A stretch of 37,559 nt of DNA from a virus. The stretch covers positions 1-37,559 of IMG/VR virus record IMGVR_UViG_3300021957_000121. One strand, written 5' to 3'. How positions within the stretch are numbered: position 1 is the stretch's first letter; every line of letters begins with the position of its first letter. The notes under the pieces are model-generated. The model was not told the origin of the DNA. It saw only the letters and a list, made by a program, of their open reading frames with translations, and searched no databases. Below are positions 8,643 to 36,137 of this stretch, piece by piece. The position numbers and the translations under genes were made by a program.

Positions 8643-8804
8643 TTATTCGTACTCTTCTTCGCCGATTAGTTCTACTTCTCCGTAATTTTCAGCACCACAG
8701 AATGGGCAGTACGATGGATGTAAGTCTGGATCGACATCTTCATCTCTGTATTGAACAGAGTATTGTGAATCGCAGTGGCGACAATATTGTGTTTCTTTAA
8801 TCAT
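8643..8804 (-). CDS. Small zinc ribbon protein downstream of nrdA
   Basis: 53 aa starting MIKETQYCRHC. Two CxxC pairs (CRHC near residue 8 and CPFC near residue 34) flank an acidic loop (DEDVDPDLHPSY), and an acidic tail follows. It overlaps the nrdA stop as TAATG, so it is translated with RNR. It could bind nucleic acid or assist RNR; no direct evidence. Confidence 0.7.
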   Translation of the reverse strand: MIKETQYCRHCDSQYSVQYRDEDVDPDLHPSYCPFCGAENYGEVELIGEEEYE

Positions 8805-10438
8805 TAACCCTCGCACGATGTGCATGTAAGTAAGTTGCGTGATAGCTCTTGTGCTGGATTAGTACCACGATGATAGTAGAGCGTTTTTACACCCTGTTCC
8901 CACGCGTAAATGAGAAGTTGATTTGTATCGCGTGGTGGAGTCTTAGGGTGAATCATTAGATTAATACTCTGCGATTGATCAATGTACTTTTGACGAATAC
9001 CTGTTTGTAGAATAACTTCCTTCTGTGAGATTTCACCGAATGTTTTAAACACGTCTTTTTCGTGATCAGATAAGAACATTAAGTGTTGAACACTTCCACC
9101 CGTTACAAGAATAGACTTCCATACATCAGAATTGTCATGACCGTGTTCTTTAAGTACTTCCTTTAAGAAAGGATTCTTATAAGTAAACTTACCTTTTGCG
9201 AGATCTTTCACAAAGTAGTTACTATTCAACGGTTCAATACTAGGTGATACTTGACCAAGTATGAATGAACTTGAGGTTGTAGGTGCGATTGCTTGAGTTG
9301 TCATGTTCCTACGACCCGAGCCTTTTAACTTTTCAGGTACACCATAAGTTTTAGCCAGTTCACGTGATGCGGTCATACTTTCAGCTTCAATATGACTAAA
9401 GATCTGATTAGTCAGCATTTTAGCTTCTAAACTCTCGAAGGCTACACTCTTAGATTGTAGGAATGAGTGCCATCCAAGGACACCTATTCCAAGTGCACGT
9501 TGTTGTATTGAGAACTTACGAGGTGCTTCCATAAATGGTAAACCTTCAGTCTTTTCGATGAACTCTTCAATCACCGTGTCAAGGAAGCGCGTAAGAACTT
9601 GAACAGCGTCTGTTTCTTTCCACTCTTCGTAGTGCAATAGGTTCATAGAAGATAAACAGCAGACAAAAGATTCTTCTTCACTCGTTGACAAACAAATTTC
9701 AGAACATAGGTTTGAAGCGTGGATCTTACCGCTTTCTTTTGGCTTATTTTTATTCACAGTATCACTAAACATGATGTAAGGATACCCGCTTTCATAACGC
9801 TTTTGAATAACTTTACCCCAAATCTTACGCTTGTCTTTATCTCCATCGAGCATTTCTTTCATGAACTTATCAGTGACTGTTACGCCAATTGACATGTTCT
9901 GAATGGGATTACCATCACCACGAATTTGAAGGAACTCGAGGATGTCAGGATGTTCAATAGGCATATAACCAGCAAAGGAACCACGACGGACGTTGCTCTG
10001 AGAAACAACATTCGTCATGGTTTCGAATAGTTCCATAAAATGTACAGGACCATTTGAATTACCACCTGCTGATATTTCAGAACCCCGACTACGCAGTGCT
10101 CCAAAGTATGCAGATGTTCCTCCACCCATTTTAGTCATCATGCCAACCTCGGCTTGTTTACCTAAAATAGATTCCATGGTGTCGCCAATGAAAGATCCAA
10201 AGCAAGAAATGGGTAAGCCACGTTTAAGCCCATAGTTTGCCCAGATCGGAGATGCTAACGAGTACCATCCTCTTGACATGTAATCTTCAAATCTGTCTGC
10301 GAAGCCATCTTCACCTAAGATTCGTTGTGCTTTCAGCGCGATTTGTCTTATTCTTTTTTCAGGGGTTTGTCCTTCAGTCAAGTAACCTCTTTCAAGAAAA
10401 AGACGCGAATCTTTATTTAGCCAGTAATATTTTTCCAT
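8804..10438 (-). CDS. nrdA: Class Ia ribonucleotide reductase, large subunit
   Basis: 544 aa, short because the N-terminal ATP-cone is missing, so dATP inhibition at that site is probably absent. Catalytic residues are visible: Cys79 in GLPISCFGS, N-x-C-x-E at Asn243-Cys245-Glu247, the second redox cysteine at 260/261 in FVCCLSSMN, the radical-path pair Tyr521-Tyr522 in TLYYHRG, and the C-terminal shuttle cysteines Cys539 and Cys542. It reduces ribonucleoside diphosphates to deoxy forms together with NrdB. The gene is 15 nt from nrdB in one operon. No glutaredoxin gene is seen in the window. Confidence 0.95.
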   Translation of the reverse strand: MEKYYWLNKDSRLFLERGYLTEGQTPEKRIRQIALKAQRILGEDGFADRFEDYMSRGWYSLASPIWANYGLKRGLPISCFGSFIGDTMESILGKQAEVGMMTKMGGGTSAYFGALRSRGSEISAGGNSNGPVHFMELFETMTNVVSQSNVRRGSFAGYMPIEHPDILEFLQIRGDGNPIQNMSIGVTVTDKFMKEMLDGDKDKRKIWGKVIQKRYESGYPYIMFSDTVNKNKPKESGKIHASNLCSEICLSTSEEESFVCCLSSMNLLHYEEWKETDAVQVLTRFLDTVIEEFIEKTEGLPFMEAPRKFSIQQRALGIGVLGWHSFLQSKSVAFESLEAKMLTNQIFSHIEAESMTASRELAKTYGVPEKLKGSGRRNMTTQAIAPTTSSSFILGQVSPSIEPLNSNYFVKDLAKGKFTYKNPFLKEVLKEHGHDNSDVWKSILVTGGSVQHLMFLSDHEKDVFKTFGEISQKEVILQTGIRQKYIDQSQSINLMIHPKTPPRDTNQLLIYAWEQGVKTLYYHRGTNPAQELSRNLLTCTSCEG

Positions 10439-12374: not shown

Positions 12375-12743
12375 TTATAAATCTTTTAGTTTGTTTGCTA
12401 TGTTTAAATCAATATTTATATTGTTATGAGTATTCTCTGGCAGATAGTTTAAATAAAGTAGAAACGTTTTCAGTGTTGGCCAAAGATTAACTTCAACTCT
12501 ATGAAATATCATTCTATTCGCTGCAGGTATTTCAAAGACGTTGTAAATCGTAATGATATGATTCAGCAAAAGCCGCTCTTGGATCTTACCAGTATCTCGG
12601 TATCGTCTAAGTAGTCTTACTACGTATTTGAATTTTGCCACATCATCATAGAAATCCTGCGGATCTAAGCAAGCAGGATTTCTATAATGTTTAGCAGCGT
12701 ATAGCTCAAAGTTGGCATTGTTTAATTCGTCGAATAACTTCAT
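12375..12743 (-). CDS. Conserved phage protein of unknown function, leaderless late gene
   Basis: 122 aa starting MKLFDELNNANFELYAAKHY. It is mostly helical, with RLLRRYRDTGKIQERLLLNHII in the middle. It is similar in size and pattern to unknown late proteins of T4-like phages. A perfect TATAAATA ends exactly 5 nt before its ATG, so late transcripts should start at the AUG itself. Confidence 0.7.
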   Translation of the reverse strand: MKLFDELNNANFELYAAKHYRNPACLDPQDFYDDVAKFKYVVRLLRRYRDTGKIQERLLLNHIITIYNVFEIPAANRMIFHRVEVNLWPTLKTFLLYLNYLPENTHNNINIDLNIANKLKDL

Positions 12744-12748
12744 AAAGT

Positions 12749-12756
12749 TATTTATA
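12749..12756 (-). promoter_or_regulatory. Late promoter TATAAATA, 5 nt before ATG
   Basis: Minus strand TATAAATA-ACTTT-ATG. In T4 the late start site lies about 6 nt after the last A, which here is the A of the start codon. It drives the gene at 12375-12743 and probably those downstream. Confidence 0.8.
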
Positions 12757-12764
12757 TAACCTTA

Positions 12765-13625
12765 TTACGAGTCTGCAGCAGCTGATTGTTGTCCTAGAAT
12801 AAATAGGTGGAAATCAGCGGTATCTTTCTTATAAGGATTCTTCTTGCCATTAGACTTTTCACCAGCTTTAAAGGCAGAATTCGATTCAACCGCTTTAGCC
12901 AATTTAGTATCTATAAAGAGTTTTGAAAGCATACTATCAACTTCACGTTTTGTGATTTTAGCGTCTCCACCTTTCACAAAATCAGCAGGAGTAACTGCTT
13001 CTTCAAGATCAACTGATTCAGCAATTCCTTCAAACTCTGGTTGACTCTCAATATATCTGATGTAAATTCTTTCGTTTGGCACTGTCACAGATTTACCTTT
13101 AGATGTTAAGGATCTGAGTTCGCTCCACTTATTAGCCAATTTCTTCGCAAGCCTCTTTGCGGCGTCAGGTGTAGGAGTATTAATATCAACCGTATCAGTA
13201 GCTTCTTCAAGATCAGCTGATTCAACCTTATACTCTTTCCCTTGAAACTTGAATTTTTTCTTACCGGCTTTTTTAGCATCAGTAACAGCTTGTCCAAATG
13301 CGTTACCTTCTTCTACATCATCCTCATCCTCAACTTCCGTTTCTTCGGTGTACTTCTTTTGTTCAGGATCTTCTTTATCGTCAACGGTATGGGCGTCTAC
13401 AGTATCCTTATCAGAATCTTGTACTTCTGTTTCATTTTTTTCACTTGGCTTTTCATGAGTATAACCCATGTCTTTCATTTTTAGATGATCTTCAAGCGAT
13501 TTTGCTTCATGGGCTTTACCCGTTTTTGGATCATACATTGTATGTGGTTTAAAGTCTTTCTTATCTTCTATGACGTGCTTTACAGCTTCGGCCACAGACA
13601 GTGTTATTTTATCGTTGAGTTTCAT
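12765..13625 (-). CDS. Acidic modular protein with possible prohead-protease sites
   Basis: 286 aa starting MKLNDKITLSVAEAVKHVIED. The first 110 residues are very acidic and low in complexity, ending in DDVEEGNAF. Then comes a basic mini-domain (KKFKFQGKEYKVES), the motif SADLEEA, a helical module, AESVDLEEA and a C-terminal module. The strings VEE-G, LEE-A and LEE-A fit the T4 gp21 protease rule (hydrophobic-x-Glu before Ala or Gly). The layout suggests a scaffold or internal head polyprotein cut during maturation; this is inference. The GNAFxxA...GKxYxV mini-module recurs in marine phage structural proteins. Confidence 0.65.
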   Translation of the reverse strand: MKLNDKITLSVAEAVKHVIEDKKDFKPHTMYDPKTGKAHEAKSLEDHLKMKDMGYTHEKPSEKNETEVQDSDKDTVDAHTVDDKEDPEQKKYTEETEVEDEDDVEEGNAFGQAVTDAKKAGKKKFKFQGKEYKVESADLEEATDTVDINTPTPDAAKRLAKKLANKWSELRSLTSKGKSVTVPNERIYIRYIESQPEFEGIAESVDLEEAVTPADFVKGGDAKITKREVDSMLSKLFIDTKLAKAVESNSAFKAGEKSNGKKNPYKKDTADFHLFILGQQSAAADS

Positions 13626-13640
13626 AAGTGTTATGGTATG

Positions 13641-14006
13641 TTATGCGGATTTCTTGGCCGCGTTCATTTTGTCAATTCTATCCAGTTCAGCCTTTTTAAT
13701 TTTAGGTAGAAGCTTTTTCGCGAGTTTTTTAATCAACGATCTTTTTGCTTCAACCTTTTTGTCTATAGCAGCCTTTTGAGCATACGGCATAGAGTTATAA
13801 TCACTTTTTGCTATTTTGTCTCTAATAGTTTCTCTTGCTTTCTTTTCTGCTCGTGCTTTAAGCGTTGGCAGATCGGCCTTTTTCTTGGCTTTCATTTTAC
13901 GCTTTAACGCCATACGAGGAGCAAGGCGCTTCATAGCACGTGAACGCTGTTGACGCTGTTGAGGAGTCAATGGTTTTTCAATAAGGTATTCTATAAACGA
14001 TATCAT
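13641..14006 (-). CDS. Very basic putative internal head protein with CTS-like N-terminus
   Basis: 121 aa, about one third Lys or Arg. It starts MISFIEYLIEK, matching the T4 internal-protein capsid-targeting sequence (MKTYQEFIAE-A) in layout, with Glu at position 10. The rest is basic helix (RAMKRLAPRMALKRKMKAKK and similar), and its charge suits binding packaged DNA. Similar basic proteins occur in marine T4-like phages as unknowns. A DNA-condensing or injected internal protein is my reading; a non-virion DNA-binding protein is the alternative. Confidence 0.65.
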   Translation of the reverse strand: MISFIEYLIEKPLTPQQRQQRSRAMKRLAPRMALKRKMKAKKKADLPTLKARAEKKARETIRDKIAKSDYNSMPYAQKAAIDKKVEAKRSLIKKLAKKLLPKIKKAELDRIDKMNAAKKSA

Positions 14007-14309
14007 TTAATTGCTCTCTGGGAATCCTAGTAACCAAATGATACTCGCTCCTAGACCTGTAATGATTGTTGACACAAATGTCCAAGTGACAGATTTAATT
14101 GTTTTTAACGTTGCGCCTGAATCTATTTGAGATTGTTCAACCTCTCTTAAACGTTCTTCTTGAGCAACTATTTGGTTTAAAATGACTCGTGTTGTTTCGT
14201 CTAGGTTAGAGATCTTTTCTTCAGCTCGTGCCAAAGCAATAATGGCGTCTGCCATCTTATCGATTTTTTCTTCGATCCGGTCAAATCGTGTGTTTTCGTC
14301 TGCATTCAT
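14007..14309 (-). CDS. Coiled-coil protein with C-terminal membrane anchor
   Basis: 100 aa starting MNADENTRFDRIEEKIDKM. Residues 8-65 form a coiled coil (heptads in IEEKIDKMADAIIALARAEEKI). One hydrophobic segment near the C-terminus (TWTFVSTIITGLGASIIWLLG) follows. The layout resembles XhlA-like and DUF-type phage proteins that attach to the inner membrane. A holin-associated or tail/DNA-entry role is possible, with no decisive motif. It abuts the next upstream gene. Confidence 0.65.
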   Translation of the reverse strand: MNADENTRFDRIEEKIDKMADAIIALARAEEKISNLDETTRVILNQIVAQEERLREVEQSQIDSGATLKTIKSVTWTFVSTIITGLGASIIWLLGFPESN

Positions 14310-14310
14310 A

Positions 14311-15081
14311 TTATTTGACTTTTACTTTACGAACAAACTTGCGTTGGATAGCATTCCACTTCCAGTCTTTCTTATTGAAATTTTTAAAGTCTTGAACTTC
14401 ATCATACTCATCCGCTGTTAGAACATTCGTCTTTTCAAAATCAAATGATTCTTCAAGATCAACAGATTCTTTGATGCGTTTATCGCCAGTAGCAACCACT
14501 TTGTAACCCTTAGCATTACCGCCAAGGCTATCATAGTGATCTAAAGCAGCTGAAGTAGACATAGGACGAGAAGAAACGACCTTACCCCGCTTATCAATCA
14601 CAACATACTGTTTAGCTTCATCAAGATCAGTTGATTCTTTCAACTTAGCAAGTTTGCTCTTAAGCATATCGACGTACTTAGTACCTCCATAAGATTTAAC
14701 CCGCTTAGGATCAGGATTCTTGATCATCTTTTCAAGATCTTTAGCGTCGAGCTCTTTATCAGTGGCTTCGCCCATTAGCCTAGCCTTATTGTCGTGATAC
14801 CATGCCTTATCGGACACTTCAGCATCTCCACCAATCTTAGCAGCAGCCATTTTAGCGCCTTGCCATTTTCTCCAAGACTTTGACGGGCTTAGTTGCTTGC
14901 CTGTCTTTCTATCATAAATAATCCAATCCGCACTTGCTTCAAATATCTCGTATGCTTCTTTAATTTCAGAAGGTTTAGTGAAGTCTATATCTTCGTAAAT
15001 AAAGTTAGGGCAAAAGTTTTCGCCAAGTGCTATTGAGCAGATCTTTGATAGTCTTTTTTCTGTAATATTCATGTTTCCCAT
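14311..15081 (-). CDS. Modular protein with ES-x-DLxE linker motifs, putative processed head protein
   Basis: 256 aa; ATGs at 15081 (MGNMNITEKRLSKIC) and three codons later are both possible. The central region is basic (SKSWRKWQGAKMAAAKIGG). Two linker motifs, KESTDLDEA (about 157) and KESVDLEES (about 214), flank a small beta module (KQYVVIDKRGKVVSSRP...). LDE-A and LEE-S fit a T4-type protease. The same ES-x-DLEEA motif occurs in the protein at 12765-13625. It is under the late promoter at 15101-15108. Probably a virion or scaffold component; unproven. Confidence 0.6.
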   Translation of the reverse strand: MGNMNITEKRLSKICSIALGENFCPNFIYEDIDFTKPSEIKEAYEIFEASADWIIYDRKTGKQLSPSKSWRKWQGAKMAAAKIGGDAEVSDKAWYHDNKARLMGEATDKELDAKDLEKMIKNPDPKRVKSYGGTKYVDMLKSKLAKLKESTDLDEAKQYVVIDKRGKVVSSRPMSTSAALDHYDSLGGNAKGYKVVATGDKRIKESVDLEESFDFEKTNVLTADEYDEVQDFKNFNKKDWKWNAIQRKFVRKVKVK

Positions 15082-15100
15082 TAGGTTAAAATTATAATTC

Positions 15101-15108
15101 TATTTATA
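15101..15108 (-). promoter_or_regulatory. Late promoter TATAAATA
   Basis: A perfect TATAAATA on the minus strand in the 33-bp gap between genes, 19 nt before the ATG at 15081, so with a short leader. Confidence 0.75.
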
Positions 15109-15114
15109 AAAAAG

Positions 15115-16614
15115 TCATCCTCCAAATTCGTGTCCTGCAACTCTTTTCATTTGTTTTTTATATTCGCCAAAGTCTGGCTTTTCTTTATATAGCTTGATTG
15201 AAATATTGTCACGGTCTTTACCTTTAATACGCCATTTGAATCCTTTTTCAAGATGTTCAGGTTTGGTTGCTTTAACTACACGGCGTTTGAATCCATCTTC
15301 CCAAGTTTCGCTTTTACCTTCACCTTCTTCAAGCGATTCCTTTTTAACCTTTGCGGCTAAGTCTTTATCAGCACCACCCCAAGTACCTTTGCTTTTTGTG
15401 ATAAAGGAATTAACTCGAGCGAATGCCCATTGGTGAGGAGTTGCTCCTGGTCTATGACCTGTTTTCCAAGCAGCCATTCCACGATCAAACACTTTCTTTA
15501 GAATACCATAGGCAATGCCCGATTCTTCGGATTTCTTTTCGAGACCTTTGATTTGCTTTTCAGTTAATTGTCCAGGCGTATTCTTTTTATAAGTATTCGC
15601 TAATTCGTCAGTGCCTTGCTCTAAGGCTTCATCTTTACCAAACTTTTTGCGATACGCGATGGTGTGTTTAGAGAGTTTAGTCTTTGCTTTCGCATCGCCT
15701 GGTGCAGGCTTATACGCCTTTGGATCATCATCATCTAGTTTTGCTTGCTTATTAAACTGTGCTTGTCTTTTTGCTTTAGTTGATTTAGAAAGGTCTTTAC
15801 CGTATGCCGGGTTTAACTTTTCTTCAAGCGAATGGATAAAATATTTGTCACCTTCGCTGCAAACTACGTAATTAGATTTACGTTCTTGAATAGTAATTTC
15901 AACCTTGCCATTTACATATGCAGTGTCGCCTTCGTTAAAAATCTCGCCTGAAATATATCGTTCACGCTTTTCTGAAACTGTTGGAAGTTGAACGTGTTTA
16001 CGGAAGTTGACCATTTCCTTTAGCCCCATTCTCTTACGAAGAAGATTAAAGAGTGTCATATCTTCGCCGTATTCCTTTGGTAATCCCTTTGAAAAAGATT
16101 TAAAGTCGCCATCGATGGCAGCTTTACGCATTTTAGATGCAGACATTCCCGATACATCGTCTGCATCAGGATCGCGGTCACCAGCGGATACGATTTGAAT
16201 TCCGTCTTTAAAGTTATAATAACCATGACGGCTTTCAACTCCATTGTATTTATTCAACAGTGTTTGAAATTCTTTAATACGGTCAGATCCAACAACCATT
16301 GTGAGTTGGGTAAAGCCCTGATCATGCAATGATGTTGCGATGTGCATCGCAGTCTTAGCCTTTGTGTCTTCAACAATATTGCGGCCATGTTTAGGAAACA
16401 TTTTCCGCATTATTTTAATTTTCTCTTTATACTCTAAGGGGTTCTTTTTAGGATCATTAGATTGAGAGGCGTAAATACGATAGTTATTACCAGTTGCGAC
16501 TGAGGCAACTTTAGCAAGAAGTTTTCCGTGGCCTACTGTAGGTGGATTAAATCTGCCAAAGGTGAAAACTACTCCCTTTGTTTTTTCTTCGTTGTACTCT
16601 TTAAAGGATTTCAC
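15115..16614 (-). CDS. Nucleotidyltransferase (NMNAT-like) fused to a phage virion module, CTS-like N-terminus
   Basis: 499 aa, starting at GTG inside TAGTG. The N-terminus MKSFKEYNEEK resembles the T4 capsid-targeting sequence. Residues 14-200 are a HxGH-type nucleotidyltransferase: TFGRFNPPTVGH (18-29), with Thr in place of the first His, and SGMSASKMR (155-163) as the ISxTxxR motif. NMN or phosphopantetheine adenylyltransferases and cytidylyltransferases are the nearest kinds; the substrate is unproven. An SH3-like stretch (about 215-265), a Lys/Asp-rich linker and a C-terminal module (GILKKVFDRGMAAWKTGHRPGATPHQW region) follow. The last is often a separate phage protein. A SLEEG string near 425 may be a protease site. 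Confidence 0.75.
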   Translation of the reverse strand: MKSFKEYNEEKTKGVVFTFGRFNPPTVGHGKLLAKVASVATGNNYRIYASQSNDPKKNPLEYKEKIKIMRKMFPKHGRNIVEDTKAKTAMHIATSLHDQGFTQLTMVVGSDRIKEFQTLLNKYNGVESRHGYYNFKDGIQIVSAGDRDPDADDVSGMSASKMRKAAIDGDFKSFSKGLPKEYGEDMTLFNLLRKRMGLKEMVNFRKHVQLPTVSEKRERYISGEIFNEGDTAYVNGKVEITIQERKSNYVVCSEGDKYFIHSLEEKLNPAYGKDLSKSTKAKRQAQFNKQAKLDDDDPKAYKPAPGDAKAKTKLSKHTIAYRKKFGKDEALEQGTDELANTYKKNTPGQLTEKQIKGLEKKSEESGIAYGILKKVFDRGMAAWKTGHRPGATPHQWAFARVNSFITKSKGTWGGADKDLAAKVKKESLEEGEGKSETWEDGFKRRVVKATKPEHLEKGFKWRIKGKDRDNISIKLYKEKPDFGEYKKQMKRVAGHEFGG

Positions 16615-16913
16615 TATTTTGTTTTCTTTTTGAATTGTGTGGATTTCATTTCATCTTGAATATCCTTTAACGCTTCAGTGCTTTGCTGTAAAATACCAAT
16701 TTGCATAAGTAAAGCTGATGGTTTATCTGAGAATTTAGAAAGGCCTTTTATCTCGTCGGCAATCTTCTTTTGAAGATGTGATAAGCGCATCGTGCCATAG
16801 TTTGACACCAAGACCGTTGGATCTTTGGGATTGCTTATCGTATCATCGTTATAGATAACCGCGCTTTTACCTTCGTTAAGTATAAGAGACTTTACTGTGT
16901 TTTCTAAGTTCAT
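16614..16913 (-). CDS. Small helical phage protein of unknown function
   Basis: 99 aa from ATG 16913 (MNLENTVKSLILNEGK). An ATG at 16928 would add MATII; neither has a convincing ribosome site, and the shorter start is favoured by its resemblance to other N-termini in the cluster (LNE-G at 12-15 could be a protease site). The C-terminal two thirds are helical and basic (LSHLQKKIADEIKGL, then EMKSTQFKKKTK). It lies between two enzyme genes with overlaps at both ends; possibly an accessory partner. Confidence 0.6.
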   Translation of the reverse strand: MNLENTVKSLILNEGKSAVIYNDDTISNPKDPTVLVSNYGTMRLSHLQKKIADEIKGLSKFSDKPSALLMQIGILQQSTEALKDIQDEMKSTQFKKKTK

Positions 16914-16915
16914 TA

Positions 16916-18448
16916 TTATCGTTGCCATCCTTTGATGATGTCAGGACTGAAATTGTTCGTGGAGAATTCCATGCGATCAACTAACTTAACTGCTCCATTT
17001 GATGCTCGATCGATTGCAACGAATCCTTCTGAACCCGTTACCTTAAACCCATTGCGAGTACGAACAAATGTATCAATCTCTTTTAGCTTATCTAATTTAT
17101 TTATAATAATTAATTTAGCATCTACGATAGCATTCATAAGCTGAAACATTAGATCAAGGTTTTTCTTGTTCTCCTTCGAGAAGAATTTCATTTCTTCTTC
17201 TTGTTTTTTCAGTACTGCAGCCTTACCTTTTTCGCTCTTGCGTTTTTCGTACTCTTTCTTATACTTCAAATCGAACCAAGCGATAAGATCTTGAACGTGT
17301 TTAGCAGTACTGGTAATGCGTTCACCTTTACGAACAAGTGTGTTATTAAAGGTTTCAAGTTTAATTGCAAGAGCTTGATTTGATTCAAGTTCTTTAAGCG
17401 TTGAAGACTTAATCTTCTGAAAGATCTTACCTGCCTTTGATAGCGCTTGAGTAACTTCTTCTGTGTCAAGTTTAGTGAGTGTTGCCGTGCCTGAAAGATC
17501 TTGAAGATCGGCGTCCTGATACCACACACTTGGTTTCTCTTTAAGCCCTTTAAGGTCGACACCAAACGATGCTTTCATCGAAGCAAAGTCTTTACCTTTA
17601 TACGTCGTATGCCATACTACTCCAAGATTAGCTTTAAGCATTGTCTTCGCAAGATCCGATTTAGCTGGAACAGCGTAAACAAGTGTGTTAGGCTGAAACG
17701 TAATGTATTTTTCGCCATCAATTGATTCGCTATTTAAGTCGCCCTTTGTAAACATTACATCGCCTTGAATGACATCGGTGATTCCAAGATCTTTAAGTTC
17801 CTTATAAGCTATCACTAGCTTTTCTGCGAGATCACCAGAAGTATCAGCACGCACGTCAGCTTCTGACTTATACACCTTAGGATCTTTATTGAAAATGCCT
17901 TTCTTAGCAACGAAGAATTGACCATCTTGTGGATCGATACCAGCGAAGACTGCAGGTGCCCCATCCCACTTCACTGTAACATCAGTAGAGGAATTGCTAT
18001 TTCCAGCAAGCATATCTCTTAATGATCGTAATGCAAGGATTGCTTCTCTTGCTCCTTTCACCCCGCCATAGATTACAGCATCTTCGATGTGTGTCATGTG
18101 AGTGTTCTTACCAGCTTTAGCGGCTTCAGTCACGTACTGATTAAACGATTTCATCTTAAATTCTTTAATTGGTTTGTTATTAGGCTCGTCAATTTCTATT
18201 ACCAAATTAGTATCGCCTGCTTTATAAATTCTGTGGTATTCCATTTTTGAAATATTTAAAACATCGCCTTCTTCTAACTCGTAGGGTATAGCGTTATCCA
18301 TTTGGAACATCCAGCCTTTACCTTCTAATACTGTAACAACACGGTCTGCTTTATCGCGGTGCCAAACTAATTCGTGAGAATCAGTGTTTGATTCGAATGT
18401 ACGAATCTTTGACTCGCCGTTTACCTTATCTGTGTATGGTTTGCTCAT
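16916..18448 (-). CDS. Cupin domain fused to a KxDG nucleotidyltransferase/ligase-like protein
   Basis: 510 aa. Residues 1-90 are a cupin (VWHRDKADRVVTVLEGKGW, then GDVLNI and YHRI). A second N-terminus-like sequence follows at Met99, MKSFNQYVTEA, matching the T4 capsid-targeting peptide with Glu108-Ala109 at the cut position. Residues 112-510 resemble the phage DUF6267 group (name from memory): THMTHIEDAV, Lys160-W-D-G163 (motif I of DNA/RNA ligases), a VAKKGIFNKDP block and VIQGDVMF (motif III/IV-like). Covalent nucleotidyl transfer is predicted. Relatives I recall begin at the MKSF-like site, so this is either a fusion or a long form with an internal start at 18154. Confidence 0.7.
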   Translation of the reverse strand: MSKPYTDKVNGESKIRTFESNTDSHELVWHRDKADRVVTVLEGKGWMFQMDNAIPYELEEGDVLNISKMEYHRIYKAGDTNLVIEIDEPNNKPIKEFKMKSFNQYVTEAAKAGKNTHMTHIEDAVIYGGVKGAREAILALRSLRDMLAGNSNSSTDVTVKWDGAPAVFAGIDPQDGQFFVAKKGIFNKDPKVYKSEADVRADTSGDLAEKLVIAYKELKDLGITDVIQGDVMFTKGDLNSESIDGEKYITFQPNTLVYAVPAKSDLAKTMLKANLGVVWHTTYKGKDFASMKASFGVDLKGLKEKPSVWYQDADLQDLSGTATLTKLDTEEVTQALSKAGKIFQKIKSSTLKELESNQALAIKLETFNNTLVRKGERITSTAKHVQDLIAWFDLKYKKEYEKRKSEKGKAAVLKKQEEEMKFFSKENKKNLDLMFQLMNAIVDAKLIIINKLDKLKEIDTFVRTRNGFKVTGSEGFVAIDRASNGAVKLVDRMEFSTNNFSPDIIKGWQR

Positions 18449-18449
18449 A

Positions 18450-18974
18450 TTACCAAAAAAAGGATCCTCCGCCTTTTAGACCAAGCTGTGATGCATATCG
18501 TGGAAGATTGCACGACCAATAGCCTGGCTTTGTTTTATCTTTCTTTAAATGGCATTGGTGTCTAGCCGCGAAAGATTTGCGGGCAGCTGGATCATTAATC
18601 TTGGCCTTAAGACCAGACGTATCACCAAACTCTACTTTAATCACATTGCCTTTATCATTCTTAACGTAGACAAAAAATTTCTTTTTACCACCACGTTTTG
18701 GATCGTTCAATTCAACTTCCTTACCCTTATATTCTGCCTCAATCAATGGATGATCTAAGGGGACTTCTTCACCCTCATACATTGCAAGCTCACCAATGTC
18801 TGTTGACATAAGATACTCGTCGAATTCATTCAAAGGATTCAACGCAGATTCTTTCATCTGCCTTGCATAACTAAATAGCTTATAATAATTCTCCGAGTGT
18901 GGACGGAAAATGTTATGCGCTAGAGGTATTTGATTCTCTCTGTGGAATCTTAGTGCTGCTTCCAGTTTACTCAT
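18450..18974 (-). CDS. Phage structural-type module protein (EFGD...RHQC...YWSC)
   Basis: 174 aa starting MSKLEAALRFHRENQIPLAHN. The C-terminal 95 residues form a module widespread in marine phages: KKKFFVYVKN, VIKVEFGDTSG, ARKSFAARHQC, GYWSCNLPRYA and a C-terminal SFFW. Its conserved Cys and His residues could bind metal. Before it lies GELAMYEGEEVPLDHPLIEAEYKG; LIE-A fits a T4 prohead-protease site and would release the module. Coupled to the upstream gene by TAATG. Probably a virion protein; the function of the module is unknown. Confidence 0.65.
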   Translation of the reverse strand: MSKLEAALRFHRENQIPLAHNIFRPHSENYYKLFSYARQMKESALNPLNEFDEYLMSTDIGELAMYEGEEVPLDHPLIEAEYKGKEVELNDPKRGGKKKFFVYVKNDKGNVIKVEFGDTSGLKAKINDPAARKSFAARHQCHLKKDKTKPGYWSCNLPRYASQLGLKGGGSFFW

Positions 18975-20365
18975 TATTTTTCTTTTAGTATTATGTAGGA
19001 ACTTGAATCAGAGGTGGAACTACCTGCGTAATTAATAATTTGGGTGATAAACTTATTCGCAGATTGCCCGCCTTTTGCGATAAGATTAAGTATATATAGT
19101 CCCCCAAGTTTTCCGTGGATCCAGATGTCTGAGTTTTTTCCATGATCTTGAAGTTTTTCTTGAACTTCAGCGACTGATATTTTCTTATCAACGATTTGGA
19201 GCATTTTAGTGAATTTAGCAATAGCCTTCTTATCACCCTGCGCGATAAGCTTTGCTTCCTTTTTCATCACTGAGTTCTTAGGAAGTTGCTTCTTATAAAT
19301 TCTTTTCGCTGCGTCTGTCATAACACCCCAAGATGCACCTCCTCCACGAGCTCCTTTACCTTTAATCTCGACCTTATGGGATCCAAAGGCAGAGTTGGCG
19401 CGGATATCAAGTTGGCCATCCATGTGAGTAATGTAATTGGCCTTAGTGGTATACCATTCACCACGCTTGAGCGCTTTAATATGACCGGCAGTATACTTAT
19501 AGTCTTCAGTTTCAGCTGGGCGTTCTACGTTCTTTTCTACACCTTTTGCAGCTTTAGATACTTTCTTTAGTGAAATACCAACTAGACGTTTTTGAAGATA
19601 AAGATCAAGAATATCGTCGTTCAGATCTTCAACGGTCGTTGTCGCGAGTTCATCTAACTTGAAGTCGGTGTCTGCAACCCAAATATCACCAGGATTCCAC
19701 TTGTCGTCTGGCAGTGGTTTAAACCCGTTATTCTTAAACGCAGTATTTTTAGCAGAATAGACCGCTTTCATGACTTTATCATCGCGATGGAAGGTCATGC
19801 CTTTTTCGATGATGCGGTTTTTAATGGCGTACTGCGCAGAAAGATACGATGAAACTTTCCAACTTTCGTCAATAGCTAAAATCTCTTTAAGAGAAGTCTT
19901 GCCAACACTAACCATCTTAAACGCTTTAGTGAGGACTTTATCAGTAAAACTTTCCATTGGCATATCATAGCCAATATCGAGCATTGCTGCCATCCAAACG
20001 CATTGTGCAGATTCGCCAATTGCTGTACTTGCGGTACCACCTCCAGCGCCTGCTCCTCCACCAAATTCTGGTGTTTTAAGTAGATCGGATATGGATATTT
20101 CAGAACCGCCTTTACCAATAAGCTTAAACCCTTTACCATCTTGTTTGAATTGCTCAATCGATGCCAAAGCCTCTTGGGTACCAACAACAAGAAATTCTCC
20201 GCCCTTTGCAAGCGTAAGAGGTTCTTGTTTACGGATCTTATTTGCTAAGATTTCTGTTCTAGCCGATCCTGCGTTAGGTCCACCTGTTGCTGGCTTTTTA
20301 AGTTCGCCGGGTACAAGTTTTGTTCCTTCGTCGAGAAATGTTTGAAAAGACTTTAGATTAAACAT
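18974..20365 (-). CDS. Putative PD-(D/E)XK-like nuclease with CTS-like N-terminus
   Basis: 463 aa. The N-terminus MFNLKSFQTFLDEG contains the capsid-targeting-like pattern shifted by three residues, with LDE-G at the expected cut. A Gly-rich hinge (GGGAGAGGGT, about 104-113) leads into a helical region (GESAQCVWMAAML). Residues 230-275 have NPGDIWVAD and RLVGISLKKV, an arrangement like divergent PD-(D/E)XK sites (Asp, then S-x-K). Ends in a beta-rich KLGGLYILNLIAKGG region. The nuclease call is inference from those motifs. It lies between the AAA+ gene and the structural-module gene, all coupled by TAATG. Confidence 0.55.
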   Translation of the reverse strand: MFNLKSFQTFLDEGTKLVPGELKKPATGGPNAGSARTEILANKIRKQEPLTLAKGGEFLVVGTQEALASIEQFKQDGKGFKLIGKGGSEISISDLLKTPEFGGGAGAGGGTASTAIGESAQCVWMAAMLDIGYDMPMESFTDKVLTKAFKMVSVGKTSLKEILAIDESWKVSSYLSAQYAIKNRIIEKGMTFHRDDKVMKAVYSAKNTAFKNNGFKPLPDDKWNPGDIWVADTDFKLDELATTTVEDLNDDILDLYLQKRLVGISLKKVSKAAKGVEKNVERPAETEDYKYTAGHIKALKRGEWYTTKANYITHMDGQLDIRANSAFGSHKVEIKGKGARGGGASWGVMTDAAKRIYKKQLPKNSVMKKEAKLIAQGDKKAIAKFTKMLQIVDKKISVAEVQEKLQDHGKNSDIWIHGKLGGLYILNLIAKGGQSANKFITQIINYAGSSTSDSSSYIILKEK

Positions 20366-21906
20366 TATGCGTATGTTTCGATCATGCGAGTGAGTTCGCC
20401 TTCAGAGACACTTACGCCGGACTTAATAGTACCAGCCATCATGTTCAAAGCGCGAGAGAGTTTTCTTAAATTGGCAGACTGTTTAGACTTACCCTTGCGC
20501 AACATTTCGACAACAGACTTACGTGTCTTCAAGTCCATTTCAAAGCTGCCATCTAGTTTGATCTTACCTACAATAGACTCCATGAAGTCATAGATCTCAC
20601 TTTCAGTAGGATCAATCTCGATCATAAACGCTCGAGTACGAAGTGCGCCATCAGGATCAAGTTTGTCCATCTTCAAATTCGAGATAAAGATAACCTTACC
20701 AGTAAAGTTAAAGTAGCGAGGGATCAAATTGGCATCGATCAATTCCTGTGGATCTTCGTATTCGTCAGGCTCAACAACGTTCTTCCCCATTTTATTCCAA
20801 ACCAACTTACGGATCTTCTTAGTATCAGTAGCTGCTTTAAAGATATTGCGGGCTTCTTGATCTTTCAGTGCATCATCAGAGTCATCGAAAAGAATAACGC
20901 CGTCTTGGTTTTTAAACAGGAGTGAGTAGATACCAGCAGCAGATGCGGTACCAGTATTCTTGAAGTAGCCATCGCCATCAGATAGACCTACTTCAGCTAA
21001 AACCTTTTCAACTGTAAATGTCTTACCAATACCGCCGCGGCCTGCAATAAAGAGCGCATTTGATGCGCCTGACACTGTCATCTTAATTAGATTCTCCAAG
21101 TCAGTCAATTGCTTTTCGTATGTTAGTCTCTCGCGGTCTGCTTCTAATTCATCTAGTTGTGAGCTGTGAGAATATGTTTCCTTTGCAGATCCACCTCGGA
21201 CTGAGCCTGACACAGTTCCAATCGATTGTAAGATGTTGCTTCTTTGCGAAAGAAGCTTAGTGATATCTTTCTTACTTCCTTTCCAAACGTACTGCCTTCC
21301 AACCTTTTTAATAATAGCCGGGTTCTGCGCTTCCATTTCGTCAAAGATTTTGATACCAACCGACTTCCAAACTTTAAACACCTTTTGTTTAGTGAAGTTT
21401 GGACTCGAAATAAGTGATACTACATTATCATATGCATCTTCAGGATCAACCGCTTCAGTTAGCATTGCTAGAGTTTCTTCAACACCTTCGTTGAGAGGCG
21501 TATCAGTCGGGTACGTTACAAACTTACCAGTTTTAATCTTACCGCTCTTAATCATATCGGCAAGTTGTGGAAGTACTTGCACTAAAGACACATCACGGTC
21601 AAAAGCGATATGATAATTTGCACCTTGAGTAGAACCATTCCAGAGGTCAATCGAACTCAGATTATTGCTATTGGCTGATCCAACATTCGTCCAGTTGAAT
21701 CTCCACGATTCTATCTTTTTGCCCGGAGCATAAAACCTTACCCCATATCCAGCGCCGTTAGAGTTTTTAAATTTCTCCAACCCCTGATTTACAAAGATTT
21801 GTTTAATACTTGTCTTTTTGCGCAAATACTTTAAAATGATGGTTGACGCCTTTTCAAGCGAACCAGTCGATAGTTCTTCTGTGATATAATCTTTAAATTC
21901 TAGCAT
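20365..21906 (-). CDS. AAA+ ATPase with CTS-like N-terminus
   Basis: 513 aa from ATG 21906 (MLEFKDYITEE), chosen because it aligns with the other CTS-like starts; an ATG three codons up (21915) is the alternative. Numbering from the upstream ATG: Walker A GRGGIGKT at 292-299, Walker B VILFDDSDD at 340-348, sensor-1 VIFISN near 412, and arginines in DGALRTRA downstream. The N-terminal 135 residues form a separate domain. A linker (TPLNEGVEETLAMLTEAVDPED) has two strings, LNE-G and LTE-A, that fit a T4 prohead protease. ATP-driven remodelling of DNA or protein is predicted; the target is unknown. It is the first gene of the late block behind the promoter at 21938-21945. Confidence 0.8.
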   Translation of the reverse strand: MLEFKDYITEELSTGSLEKASTIILKYLRKKTSIKQIFVNQGLEKFKNSNGAGYGVRFYAPGKKIESWRFNWTNVGSANSNNLSSIDLWNGSTQGANYHIAFDRDVSLVQVLPQLADMIKSGKIKTGKFVTYPTDTPLNEGVEETLAMLTEAVDPEDAYDNVVSLISSPNFTKQKVFKVWKSVGIKIFDEMEAQNPAIIKKVGRQYVWKGSKKDITKLLSQRSNILQSIGTVSGSVRGGSAKETYSHSSQLDELEADRERLTYEKQLTDLENLIKMTVSGASNALFIAGRGGIGKTFTVEKVLAEVGLSDGDGYFKNTGTASAAGIYSLLFKNQDGVILFDDSDDALKDQEARNIFKAATDTKKIRKLVWNKMGKNVVEPDEYEDPQELIDANLIPRYFNFTGKVIFISNLKMDKLDPDGALRTRAFMIEIDPTESEIYDFMESIVGKIKLDGSFEMDLKTRKSVVEMLRKGKSKQSANLRKLSRALNMMAGTIKSGVSVSEGELTRMIETYA

Positions 21907-21937
21907 AGCTCCCATAGTGTGTTAAGTTGTTTAGTTC

Positions 21938-21945
21938 TATTTATA
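21938..21945 (-). promoter_or_regulatory. Late promoter TATAAATA for the AAA+/cargo block
   Basis: A perfect TATAAATA on the minus strand in the intergenic gap 21916-21957, 31 nt before ATG 21906. Seven coupled genes follow without another clear intergenic promoter until 15101. Confidence 0.75.
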
Positions 21946-30375: not shown

Positions 30376-31392
30376 CTAGTCCGTCAGAAGGGTTACAATC
30401 ACATCAGCCTTTGATATGTAAATCGGCAATATATTAGAACCGCCTTGCTTAACCGAAAAAGACCACGTCCCTGCGCTGGATGGGGTAATGTTAAAAGTGA
30501 ATGTGTAGTAGCCGATAGCTGGACTATCAAAGCCATAAGGTCCCCCCTCACTCATTTCAAAGTCAATGGAAGGAGGCAGGTCGCCGCTGAATGTCCCCAA
30601 CCTAACGCCAGACTTTGTGTCATCTGCGGTAAACACTGCCCTAGCATCAGTGAATAAGCCTGTGTAATCGGACGCAAACACCAGATTGCCATTTAGCATA
30701 TCAGACGCAGCAAGGGCAATTGTGATTGAGTAAGTTGCCCCCGCCAGCAAGTCCTCAGAAACAAGTTCATTAGGGGTATTGTCGGATACAATCTCTAAAT
30801 TTGAGGTAAAAGGCGTCTTTCCACTGCTGTTAAATACTATAAGCGAATTGGAGGGAACAGACACCGCATCACTTGGGGTGAGTGTTCCGACTTTATACCA
30901 ACCAGCAGTGTTCCCCACTATGGGACTACTCCCATCGTGGTAGAAGTATGAGGAGGTGTTGGAATAACCAGAACCGTCAATGTTACTACCTCCAACTTTT
31001 ATGTTTACAGAAGTGACAGGGGAAAAGGGGTTCGCTTCCGGCTCAACCAACCCAGCTTCAAGGAATCCCGAAGTCGAAAGTGTTAGAGTCGCAACGGGTG
31101 CAACCAAATCGGTCATATATTTGCCGCGCACTGTGATCACCTCATGCGAAGCCGCGCCAGTGAACCTCACGAACTGCCCCCGGTCGGAATCAAAGTAGGT
31201 GTCACCTTCAGTTGCATCTGTTACTGCGTTAAGCTCCGATGTTGAAAGGTTAGGGAAGTTGAGCTGAGATGTTTCAAGTGCCCCAAACTCCACAGTGTCA
31301 GTAGATCCTAGTTGAAGATTAGTTCGTGCTGAAGATGTGTTTGCGCTACTTAGCAGTGTGTCGATGTCTGATGATACAATTAGGTCTGGCAT
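30376..31392 (-). CDS. Virion adaptor/fibre-like protein, cassette 3
   Basis: 338 aa starting MPDLIVSSDIDTLLSSAN. Residues 1-90 (ARTNLQLGSTDTVEFGALET, then GDTYFDSDRGQFVRFTG) are shared with the proteins at 32744-33745 and 35105-36112. They form a common attachment-type module, as in phage tail or neck proteins. The rest is beta-rich and close to the 35105-36112 protein (PEANPFSP..., YHDGSS, SFSVKQGGSN). All three copies end in leucine-rich LLTD/LETD. Unlike the other two, this copy lacks a TATAAATA before its ATG and its partner protease has been deleted, so it may be fading. Confidence 0.7.
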   Translation of the reverse strand: MPDLIVSSDIDTLLSSANTSSARTNLQLGSTDTVEFGALETSQLNFPNLSTSELNAVTDATEGDTYFDSDRGQFVRFTGAASHEVITVRGKYMTDLVAPVATLTLSTSGFLEAGLVEPEANPFSPVTSVNIKVGGSNIDGSGYSNTSSYFYHDGSSPIVGNTAGWYKVGTLTPSDAVSVPSNSLIVFNSSGKTPFTSNLEIVSDNTPNELVSEDLLAGATYSITIALAASDMLNGNLVFASDYTGLFTDARAVFTADDTKSGVRLGTFSGDLPPSIDFEMSEGGPYGFDSPAIGYYTFTFNITPSSAGTWSFSVKQGGSNILPIYISKADVIVTLLTD

Positions 31393-31413
31393 ATGTTGGT
31401 GGGTTAAAGCTGT

Positions 31414-32742
31414 TTAATAAGTTGGGTAAGATGATAGATCTGCTTCCGTGACAGTGTAGCCCGTGGATATTCCCGCAAGTGCATCTACATCGAGGATCAG
31501 TTGGTTGATTTCTGGGATTCTGTTAGGAAGGTAAATCCCGCCCGTTGGGGTTGTGTTTAGTCCGATTAGCAGCAATTTTGAGCCAAGCACAAAGCAATTG
31601 GGGGCGCCAGAATCCCCTGCAACAATTCTCTCAGCAAAAGTATAGTGCTCATCGGTCGCAAGAGCCAGCGGGGGCGAGAAACTGTCAGATGTCGAGGATT
31701 TACCCAAAAGATCGGGTCGGTATAGTAGTCCAGTAAGCATGGAAGGAGGGGTTAGGTGACCAAACCAATGATCTACTAGTTCCTCCCCATAATATAAACC
31801 ATCTGTAAGAAGCCCGTGTAGAGAGGAAAGCCCCTTCTGTTCTTGGTCAAAGACACAACCATGCGAACCAATCCAAGCGTATTCCCCCGTATAGTTTTCC
31901 GAGTCAGACGGCATCACCTCCATAAAGTCAATCCCCGAAGGCAGGTCTGAGTCAAGTAAGCAAATTTGCATGTCGTAAGAATAACTCCCAGAACTCCCTG
32001 CGTAAAGAGGGTGTGTCTTCGCTTCTTGGATAGTACGTGTCACTGCCACTGTTTCCCCCGACACATCAGCAACAAAATCAACCGTGTCATTCTTGGCGAG
32101 CGGGTAGTGTGCTGAGCAAATGATGTGCCTTTTCGTCAATGCGGTTCCAGACCTGCTGGATCCGCTCCTGCTGTTGTTAGGGCTGATGGATGACAATCCA
32201 TTTAAACCAATACCCCAAAAGTCATCATTTTGCGTAAAGGTATGTGTGGATGTGTTGCGACTTGAAAACCTGGGTTTCGACGCTGTTGGGTTTTTTCCAG
32301 AAATTAGAGCGTCCATTGCGTCGCTAAAAGCCTTTCCTGCGCTTCCTGCGGTGTTGTCGATATAATCAACAGATGACCCAGCTGATACGCCCACTAAAAC
32401 AGCAATAGATTTTGACACGAAGAGACCATCCGAGCTACGTGTTACCGTGACCGTAATTGTGACCCACCCACCTGAAACAACAGACAAAACTCCGTCAGCG
32501 TCGACAGTTGCAATACCTTCATCACTGGAAGTAAATGTAGCGGTGTAAGCATCATCTTTTTCTGGGTGCAGAACCTCCCAGTTTATAACGTGCGAATCAG
32601 CTAGGGTTGCGCCTGTAATGCGCTTAATATTATGCGAATCCTCGGTCAGATTGACGGAAGTTCCCGCCACTTGCTCACCAGAAAAAGGAGTCGCGACGAC
32701 TGCTACCCAAAAAGGAAAAGGTTGTTTTACTGTGAATCTCAT
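31414..32742 (-). CDS. Ig-like plus trypsin-like serine protease, cassette 2
   Basis: 442 aa starting MRFTVKQPFPFW. Residues 55-115 are a bacterial Ig-like (BIG2) domain (SSDEGIATVDADGVLSVVSGG). Residues 195-425 are a chymotrypsin-fold protease with His212 (CSAHYPL), Asp257 (YDMQICLLDSDLP) and Ser378 in GDSGAP. The C-terminal tag is GYTVTEADLSSYPTY. About 60-70% like the protein at 33771-35099 by eye. There is no signal peptide, consistent with assembly into the virion rather than export. Probable role: cutting a surface layer or another virion protein during infection; inferred. Confidence 0.8.
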   Translation of the reverse strand: MRFTVKQPFPFWVAVVATPFSGEQVAGTSVNLTEDSHNIKRITGATLADSHVINWEVLHPEKDDAYTATFTSSDEGIATVDADGVLSVVSGGWVTITVTVTRSSDGLFVSKSIAVLVGVSAGSSVDYIDNTAGSAGKAFSDAMDALISGKNPTASKPRFSSRNTSTHTFTQNDDFWGIGLNGLSSISPNNSRSGSSRSGTALTKRHIICSAHYPLAKNDTVDFVADVSGETVAVTRTIQEAKTHPLYAGSSGSYSYDMQICLLDSDLPSGIDFMEVMPSDSENYTGEYAWIGSHGCVFDQEQKGLSSLHGLLTDGLYYGEELVDHWFGHLTPPSMLTGLLYRPDLLGKSSTSDSFSPPLALATDEHYTFAERIVAGDSGAPNCFVLGSKLLLIGLNTTPTGGIYLPNRIPEINQLILDVDALAGISTGYTVTEADLSSYPTY

Positions 32743-32743
32743 A

Positions 32744-33745
32744 CTAGTCCGTCAGAAGCGTGATTTTCATTGTAGGAACTGAGTAAAAAAGATGGTCGAT
32801 GTTTGCCTGATTTTGTGCAAGTTTAAACGAAAGCGTTCCGTCGGATGATGGCGTCAATACCCCTCGAACAATCCATGAACCAAAATTAGATCCACTGTTA
32901 GCGGCAAACGTAGTTTCCCCCATAGTGAAAACGCTTGACTCCTCTGGGGCGTTTATACTTACGTCCAGTAAGGAAAGTCCCGTCTCTGTGTCAAGGTTAA
33001 TTGCACGCAAGTAACCGCTGTCCTCATATAATCCACTGAACAAGACGCTCAGTTTTGCATTATCCAGGGCTAAGTCTAAATAATTCACTTGAAACTCAAA
33101 CTCGTAGGTAGATCCGCTCTTCAGGGCAGATGACACTAACTCAACTGGTGTTGTCGTGTTTGTGATATAGTTATTCCATACCAGCGGCGACCTATTACCC
33201 ACAGTGGGCTTGAATTGCATCAAGGTATCTGGGGTAAAAACAGCAGCAGTTATTGGCCCTACTGGATTGGAGGCGTCAAGCCAATTATTAAACGTATCTC
33301 CATAATACATGTATGGGGTTGGCGCCCATGAGGAAGGATCTTTTGCTGTGCCTATTTCCCATCTCGCCTGTATGCTTGCAATGTTGGTAGTGACAGGGAA
33401 TAAGCCCGACTCAAACAGGCGGGACTCTTGCAGGGTTAGAGCTGCCCCTTGCGTGGTGTTAATAACAGGCTCATATGACCTAGATGTGATTACGTCATAC
33501 GAAGATGCACCAGTAAATCGCACTAACTGACTACGATCAGAGTCAAAGTAAGTATCACCCTCAATTGCATCCGTTACTGCGTTAAGCTCCGATGTTGTGA
33601 GGTCAGGGAAGTTGAACTGCGATGTTTCAAGTGCCCCAAATTCTACGGTGTCAGTAGATCCTAGTTCAAGATTAGTTCGTGCTGAAGCTGTGTTTGCACT
33701 TTGTAGCAGTGCGTCGATGTCTGATGATACAATTAGGTCTGGCAT
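32744..33745 (-). CDS. Virion adaptor/fibre-like protein, cassette 2
   Basis: 333 aa. N-terminal 95 residues (MPDLIVSSDIDALLQSAN and on) match the two sister proteins; the remaining 240 residues are unrelated to them in detail (PVINTTQGAALTLQES, YMYYGDTFNNWLDAS), while the end (KITLLTD) is shared. A conserved attachment part with a swapped outer domain is the usual receptor-recognition design. The ATG lies 5 nt after a perfect TATAAATA. Confidence 0.7.
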   Translation of the reverse strand: MPDLIVSSDIDALLQSANTASARTNLELGSTDTVEFGALETSQFNFPDLTTSELNAVTDAIEGDTYFDSDRSQLVRFTGASSYDVITSRSYEPVINTTQGAALTLQESRLFESGLFPVTTNIASIQARWEIGTAKDPSSWAPTPYMYYGDTFNNWLDASNPVGPITAAVFTPDTLMQFKPTVGNRSPLVWNNYITNTTTPVELVSSALKSGSTYEFEFQVNYLDLALDNAKLSVLFSGLYEDSGYLRAINLDTETGLSLLDVSINAPEESSVFTMGETTFAANSGSNFGSWIVRGVLTPSSDGTLSFKLAQNQANIDHLFYSVPTMKITLLTD

Positions 33746-33750
33746 AGTTC

Positions 33751-33758
33751 TATTTATA
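33751..33758 (-). promoter_or_regulatory. Late promoter TATAAATA, 5 nt before ATG
   Basis: Minus strand TATAAATA-GAACT-ATG, in front of the cassette-2 adaptor gene. Expected start at the AUG. It lies between the end of the cassette-1 protease and this gene. Confidence 0.8.
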
Positions 33759-33770
33759 TGTTAAAGCCGT

Positions 33771-35099: not shown

Positions 35100-35104
35100 A
35101 TTAA

Positions 35105-36112
35105 TTAATCAGTCTCAAGTGCTATGCTGATTTCCGTCTTATTGATGTATAGGGGTAAAGTGTTAGAACTTTTTTGTTTAACTGAGAAAGATAAAGTACC
35201 TGCGCTAGATGGGGTGATCTTAAAGGTAAAGTGATAGTAACCTAAATTTGGACTATCAAAGGCGAATGGACCGTTGTTTGCACAATCAAACTCCGTTGAT
35301 ACCCCTAAGTCTCCAGTAAATGTCCCAAGGCGTTGACCTGACTGTAGATCATCGGCGGTAAACAACGCTCTAGCATTTCCAAATAATCCACTATAGTCAG
35401 ATTTAAACGATAAATTACCATTGAGCATATCCGCAGCCGAAACGCCAACTGTAATTACGTAAGATGAACCAGATAGTAGGTTTTCGGCAAAAAGTTCCGT
35501 GTAGGTATTATCTGAAACGATCTCAAAATTTGACATCATTTGAGATTTAACCCCATTTTTGGTAAAGACGATTAGGGAGTTTGCTGGGATGACGACGTTA
35601 TCACTGGGAGCTAATGTCCCCAACGAGTACCAACCAGCAGCGCCTTGGGAGCCATCGTGGTATAAATATGCGATGTTTGATGTGGCGTTGCTTCCATCGA
35701 TTGCACTCGCCCCCGTTTGTATCAAAACACTGCTTAGTGGTGTGAAGGGATTGGCTTCCGCATTAAGCAGTCCACTATCAACAAAGCCAGAATTAGCGAG
35801 CGTCACAGTCGAAACTGGGGAAACAGAATCAGTAGTATGTTTTATTCGTGACGTAATCACCTCATACGAAGCAGCTCCAGTGAAGCGAACAAACTGACCA
35901 CGGTCGGAATCAAAGTAAGTATCACCCTCAATCGCATCTGTCACAGCATTAAGCTCTGCGGTTGAAAGGTTAGGGAAGTTGAGCTGAGATGTTTCAAGTG
36001 CCCCAAATTCTACGGTGTCAGTAGATCCTAGTTCAAGATTAGTTCGTGCTGCGTTGTTAGTTGCACTGCTTAGGAGCGTGTCGATGTCTGAGGATACAAT
36101 TAAGTCTGGCAT
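35105..36112 (-). CDS. Virion adaptor/fibre-like protein, cassette 1
   Basis: 335 aa starting MPDLIVSSDIDTLLSSAT. The N-terminal module is shared with the two sister proteins; the C-terminal domain is close to the 30376-31392 protein (NAEANPFTPLSSV, LYHDGS, SFSVKQKSSN) but not to the 32744-33745 protein. Beta-rich, without transmembrane segments. The ATG lies 5 nt after TATAAATA. Confidence 0.7.
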   Translation of the reverse strand: MPDLIVSSDIDTLLSSATNNAARTNLELGSTDTVEFGALETSQLNFPNLSTAELNAVTDAIEGDTYFDSDRGQFVRFTGAASYEVITSRIKHTTDSVSPVSTVTLANSGFVDSGLLNAEANPFTPLSSVLIQTGASAIDGSNATSNIAYLYHDGSQGAAGWYSLGTLAPSDNVVIPANSLIVFTKNGVKSQMMSNFEIVSDNTYTELFAENLLSGSSYVITVGVSAADMLNGNLSFKSDYSGLFGNARALFTADDLQSGQRLGTFTGDLGVSTEFDCANNGPFAFDSPNLGYYHFTFKITPSSAGTLSFSVKQKSSNTLPLYINKTEISIALETD

Positions 36113-36117
36113 AGTGC

Positions 36118-36125
36118 TATTTATA
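36118..36125 (-). promoter_or_regulatory. Late promoter TATAAATA, 5 nt before ATG
   Basis: Minus strand TATAAATA-GCACT-ATG in front of the cassette-1 adaptor gene, in the same position as the one at 33751-33758. Confidence 0.8.
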
Positions 36126-36137
36126 TGTTAAAGTCGT

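Follow-up and report, generated by a model that had tools for sequence, protein, structure and literature searches.

In bacteriophage T4, three small internal proteins, IPI, IPII, and IPIII, carry a capsid-targeting sequence at their extreme N-terminus. This decapeptide has aromatic residues at positions 4 and 7, Ile or Leu at position 8, Glu at position 10, and often Ala at position 11, and it is borne by otherwise unrelated proteins encoded by late genes (Mullaney and Black 1996, reviewed in PMC9026906). According to that review, mutagenesis assigned targeting mainly to residues 4 and 7 and processing to residues 8 and 10, gp21 cleaves after L/I-x-E, and T4-like phages may use the targeting sequence to incorporate various proteins. 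T4 Alt, an ADP-ribosyltransferase, is another head-packaged enzyme that undergoes gp21 processing and is injected; its N-terminal propeptide, however, comprises just six residues and is cut at ITE6 (PMC5694885). In the giant phages phiKZ and SPN3US, head proteins are cut C-terminal to a Glu behind a short motif and many are ejected; however, their propeptides are different, and no F-x-x-[FY] tag is described in the accessible portions of the sources. Here, we analyzed a 37,559-base IMG/VR virus record (IMGVR_UViG_3300021957_000121; hereafter, the window), in which almost every gene lies on the minus strand and several proteins share a short N-terminal peptide. We consider it highly probable that this peptide is a T4-type capsid-targeting sequence, M-[KIL]-[ST]-F-K-[QEK]-[FY]-[IL]-x-E/ (a slash marks the point after the Glu), that constitutes a movable module. 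In contrast to the three small proteins of T4, its carriers include an ATPase, a nucleotidyltransferase, DUF6267, and dozens more families; the tag sometimes stands within a fusion, and the residue following the Glu (P1') is more varied.

Five tags in the window and their match to the T4 signal

The original prediction, made from the sequence of the window, had listed five such peptides, and all of them were located on the minus strand where it had placed them.

21877..21906, minus strand: MLEFKDYITE/E of the AAA+ ATPase; family tagged in 20/20 members
20327..20356, minus strand: LKSFQTFLDE/G, residues 4-13 of open reading frame (ORF) 18974-20365; 25 to 27/38 family members tagged
18125..18154, minus strand: MKSFNQYVTE/A, residues 99-108, at the cupin/DUF6267 junction of ORF 16916-18448
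16585..16614, minus strand: MKSFKEYNEE/K, start of the cytidylyltransferase ORF 15115-16614 (GTG start)
13977..14006, minus strand: MISFIEYLIE/K, start of the basic-protein ORF 13641-14006

Four tags are N-terminal and one is internal, from residue 99 of the cupin-DUF6267 fusion. The AAA+ ORF 20365-21915 may start at the ATG at 21915 or at 21906, where residue 4 is a further in-frame ATG and the tag begins. MG[ANTV]M precedes the tag in several unrelated tagged families (21904-21915 and relatives; MGAML, MGNMQS, MGVMML, and MGTMLN), representing either a double start or a common translation signal.

The family-weighted consensus was M-[KIL]-[ST]-F-[KS]-[QEK]-[FY]-[IL]-[TSA]-E-[AKG], and its conserved columns (aromatics at 4 and 7, I/L at 8, and E at 10) coincide with the functional positions of the T4 tag. 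The aromatics at 4 and 7 belonged to the search pattern, and the held-out ranking below serves as their test. Position 8 was left free in the search and was I, L, or V in 81% of the family-weighted tags, compared with 20% of the background; in the window tags it is I, L, L, and V, with Asn in the cytidylyltransferase. P1' was A, G, or S in 40% of the family-weighted tags, against a background of 20%. It had also been claimed that T4 internal proteins begin MKTYQEFIAE/A. In the T4 record, this holds for IPII and IPIII but not for IPI, which begins with MKTFKEF and has its first such site at ITE19/A. The string MKTYQEF was not found in the open-access literature searched.

The pattern given in the original prediction matched 4/51 N-termini and one internal site, with no other match in the window proteins; the number of N-terminal matches expected by chance was 0.03, and 0/2000 shuffles reached four. 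This pattern had been made after the peptides were seen, which speaks for the shared N-termini having arisen by chance, from start-codon bias, or through common descent of whole proteins. Since it was drawn from the same five peptides, held-out tests were run. The motif survey comprised 324 sources (the window, 320 loci, and three isolates) with 3972 ORFs. The motif [FY]xx[FY]xxE stood at the N-terminus of 370/3972 ORFs and the reversed motif at that of 14. In C48C1, a relative belonging to Kyanoviridae, it was present at 7/206 annotated N-termini versus approximately 0.9 expected, four of the seven being in the homologous cluster. Using a scoring matrix derived from 37 families that have no window member, the five peptides ranked exactly on top in the window with 15.4-21.0 bits; the next N-terminus scored -0.7 bits, and the best of the other approximately 11,000 internal positions scored 6.6. 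Among the 47 T4 proteins of the stretch examined, IPIII, IPII, and IPI took the first three places with the same matrix. With a cut-off of 12 bits, 400/3972 ORFs, belonging to 47 families, were tagged versus 2/3739 random internal stretches; the matrix was trained on tags of the same loci, so 400 is not an independent count, whereas the window and T4 rankings are independent. Chance or start-codon bias was ruled out by the held-out matrix, by reversed, shifted, and substituted patterns, and by the random internal stretches. As for common descent, the presence or absence of the tag differs between homologues, and the protein bodies sort into separate families, in agreement with the claim that the carriers are non-homologous. 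We therefore regard the probability of this group of explanations as next to negligible.

The tag as a movable module

In most clades, the DUF6267 proteins have the tag directly ahead of their conserved KNTH..H.ED start. The Glu is invariant across the diverged DUF6267 alignments; the pelagiphages have a shortened form of the tag, L-x-E-D-KNTH, and the DUF6267 proteins of S-PM2, S-SM1, and S-SZBM1 are without it. In the window and its close relatives (L006-L027), a cupin lies ahead of DUF6267 and the tag remains between the two domains. In L052, L053, and L055, DUF6267 is instead preceded by another N-terminal domain, and the junction retains just ILE/A; this suggests a polyprotein that the prohead protease would cleave.

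Comparable changes were seen in other proteins. DUF5824 is a gene of its own in C48C1, beginning with MITFKKYLEEK, and is the C-terminal domain of the cytidylyltransferase in the window. The untagged ORF 18450-18974 has a homologue with the sequence MLTFTQFIAEAEYQGKKV, in which the tag directly precedes the LIE/AEYKGKEV point of the window protein. The variable slot just upstream of DUF6267 held 43 families in 255 loci, 18 of them with tagged members. In AlphaFold models, confidence was low at residues 1-15 of DUF6267 and residues 1-11 of the ORF 18974-20365 protein; these N-termini are presumably disordered, which would fit a removable propeptide. We propose that the tag would act as a movable module, placed on unrelated proteins, gained or lost among homologues, and attached to DUF5824 either separate or fused.

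Late-promoter motifs, virion proteomes, and the proposed route into the head

The T4 late-promoter motif TATAAATA occurred 12 times in the window versus 2.7 expected, a number reached in 0/100 shuffles. Two copies concern the tagged cluster.

21938..21945, minus strand: late-promoter motif TATAAATA, 23 nucleotides before the AAA+ gene
15101..15108, minus strand: late-promoter motif TATAAATA, 20 nucleotides before ORF 14311-15081

The copy before the AAA+ gene and the excess across the window agree, at the level of a promoter motif match, with the claim that these genes are under late promoters. At 12749-12756, 33751-33758, and 36118-36125, just 6 nucleotides separate TATAAATA from the start of ORFs 12375-12743, 32744-33745, and 35105-36112, respectively; late promoters at these positions would give mRNAs with almost no leader. 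The cluster proteins were also rich in the protease-like site [ILVMF]xE[AGS], with 29 sites versus 11.8 expected, compared with 32 versus 30.8 in the rest of the window.

A homologue of the tagged cytidylyltransferase/NMNAT-like enzyme of the window is reported in the virion proteomes of four cyanophages: T4-GC190 of S-SM1 (PMC3037559), ORF91 of S-SCSM1 (PMC9602691), S-SZBM1_140 of S-SZBM1 (PMC9146016), and ORF154 of S-CREM2 (PMC10665884). These proteins begin with MKKFSAFLNE/A, MKSFLQFLKE/A, MRFRQFIIE/A, and MKNFSSFLTE/A, respectively, so that the Glu of the tag is residue 10 in S-SM1, S-SCSM1, and S-CREM2 and residue 9 in S-SZBM1. No packaging signal is named in the available text of the papers; the tag was read in this analysis. 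The untagged DUF6267 of S-SZBM1 is absent from its virion table. In the corresponding region of S-SCSM1, ORFs 89, 90, 91, 92, 93, 95, and 97 are annotated as virion proteins; one of them, ORF90, is distantly homologous to the window ORF 18974-20365 (E 3e-5). When 265 S-SCSM1 proteins were scored (approximately 10 kilobases of the genome lay outside this count), just two were clearly tagged, the NMNAT and SSCSM1_30. The latter (MK867354 44215-44535; 106 residues) begins with MKTFKQFMSE/S and is flanked by two annotated virion proteins.

Several points weigh against capsid targeting in the window phage. The virion data come from relatives, namely the four cyanophages, which are other phages than that of the window. 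In S-SCSM1, the NMNAT is annotated as a virion protein and the tagged SSCSM1_30 is not, while several untagged proteins are; the tag is thus informative but may be neither necessary nor sufficient for presence in the virion. Virion preparations may contain abundant proteins that are not packaged, a caution given in PMC10665884 and PMC9602691. In the window itself, P1' is Lys in the cytidylyltransferase and the basic protein, and the residue at P3 of the cytidylyltransferase is Asn, which makes cutting uncertain there. The head genes lie outside the window fragment, so the phage's own prohead protease is not visible; a head maturation protease and a scaffold are annotated in C48C1.

The window encodes a UvsX-like recombinase, a DnaB-type helicase, a ribonucleotide reductase, and further genes typical of T4-like marine phages. 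In both the window and C48C1, the tagged-gene cluster is located between uvsX/dnaB and the nrd genes, away from the head genes. This location would suit a docking peptide for another complex, for example the adjoining replication or nucleotide-synthesis machinery. However, the best T4 matches of the motif are the internal proteins, its conserved columns look like a protease cleavage site, and virions contain homologues; docking is hence very unlikely in our judgment.

The fit to the T4 functional positions, the top rank of the T4 internal proteins, the late-promoter motifs, the excess of protease-like sites, and the four virion proteomes together support the capsid-targeting interpretation of the original prediction, and the tagged window proteins are very likely targeted to the capsid. 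Judging from the residues around the Glu, cleavage after it is likely in four of the five proteins and doubtful in the cytidylyltransferase because its P3 is Asn, not I/L. In the proposed mechanism, late synthesis of the tagged proteins would lead to binding of the prohead core via the two aromatic residues and to enclosure. Cleavage after the Glu by a gp21-type prohead protease would release most of them from the tag, and the products would leave the particle together with the DNA in the following infection. We infer packaging and cleavage in the window phage and an early action in the host, and, by the T4 precedent, the tagged proteins may be injected.

Alternatively, the tagged proteins might be taken into the prohead core to help in head assembly or DNA packing, with no injected effectors among them. 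Some carriers are small and basic, several cluster neighbors are rich in protease-like sites like core proteins, and IPIII of T4 affects head assembly (PMC9026906). On the other hand, most carriers resemble enzymes or large variable proteins, and the carrier set varies greatly among relatives, which fits effectors better than a scaffold. We consider a role confined to the head possible but rather unlikely.

Carrier proteins, neighboring genes, and biological meaning

The carriers and their neighbors in the cluster are as follows.

20365..21915, minus strand: AAA+ ATPase, 516 residues; Walker A and B; phrog_1250; distant relative of T4 nrdC.10
18974..20365, minus strand: 463-residue protein; its distant homologue is the virion-annotated ORF90 of S-SCSM1
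18450..18974, minus strand: untagged 174-residue protein; LIE79/AEYKGKEV site
16916..18448, minus strand: cupin-DUF6267 fusion; KWDG motif; weak ligase likeness
16614..16928, minus strand: 104-residue protein; early LNE19/G site, compare ITE19/A of T4 IPI
15115..16614, minus strand: cytidylyltransferase/NMNAT-like protein; CTP_transf_like and C-terminal DUF5824; homologues in the virions of four cyanophages
14311..15081, minus strand: untagged protein; seven protease-like sites versus 0.8 expected, including LDE/A and LEE/S
13641..14006, minus strand: basic protein, 121 residues; isoelectric point 10.7; 31% Lys+Arg
12765..13625, minus strand: untagged protein; five protease-like sites versus 1.4 expected, including VAE13/A and two LEE/A

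The labels first given to the five carriers fared differently. The presence of Walker A and Walker B bears out the AAA+ ATPase, the CTP_transf_like domain match bears out the nucleotidyltransferase, and the isoelectric point and Lys+Arg content bear out the basic protein, which resembles a T4 internal protein in character and had no match in the phage collection searched. ORF 18974-20365 had been called nuclease-like; neither a Pfam family nor a significant fold match was found, a loose resemblance to an SLKK motif was the sole nuclease-type likeness, and the label was dropped because the fold search and Pfam were empty. For DUF6267, described as ligase-like, K-x-D-G is invariant in the alignment and the best fold match was a DNA ligase. 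The fold resemblance is weak (E 0.11, TM 0.17), and a ligase-type nucleotidyltransferase is a tentative lead. PDB sequence searches with DUF6267 and the cytidylyltransferase gave no useful match.

Pfam searches on 20 other tagged families gave matches above the cut-off only for RimK-like ATP-grasp and HD domains. The RimK-like ATP-grasp protein (L002:82-1131, Melnitz-3) has the tag KFSQFITE/E and is possibly a packaged peptide ligase. The HD_4-domain protein (L292:13785-14360) is tagged MKTFKKYIAE/D. The HD_4 domain occurs in (p)ppGpp hydrolases, and this protein may possibly be a packaged alarmone hydrolase.

Two further features of the window were noted outside the cluster. At 30376-37388, a two-gene unit is present in three tandem copies, in which ORFs starting at 30376, 32744, and 35105 (39-66% identity) alternate with those at 31414, 33771, and 36138 (29-70%); these units are probably tail adhesins. 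The ribonucleotide reductase large subunit (8804-10438) has 544 residues, compared with 664 in the C48C1 protein, and the phage family model was matched from position 207 onward; the window protein may be without part of its N-terminus.

The capsid-targeting sequence itself is a known T4 element; what appears to be new is that a whole clade uses it on enzymes. The open-access literature searched described no enzyme-loading tag shared by a clade, and in it "capsid targeting" together with "cyanophage" retrieved just a T4 review; subscription literature was outside this search, and the novelty is not certain. The label on dozens of families in relatives, together with the presence of one labeled enzyme in the virions of four relatives, probably indicates a changeable set of injected enzymes, for which a takeover or anti-defence purpose, as proposed in the original prediction, would be reasonable. 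Whether marine T4-like phages have a general head-loading tag system, in which each particle would carry a changeable set of tagged proteins, those of the slot upstream of DUF6267 included, and inject them as effectors for host-specific takeover or counter-defence, is in our view evenly balanced.

The tag offers a possible reason for the repeated finding of cytidylyltransferases in cyanophage virions. Dozens of families, mostly of unknown function, gain a testable location, the head interior, and a testable processing site, and the T4 targeting peptide can be used to search a very abundant phage group for packaged proteins. If the general tag system is true, packaged effectors would be findable from sequence alone.

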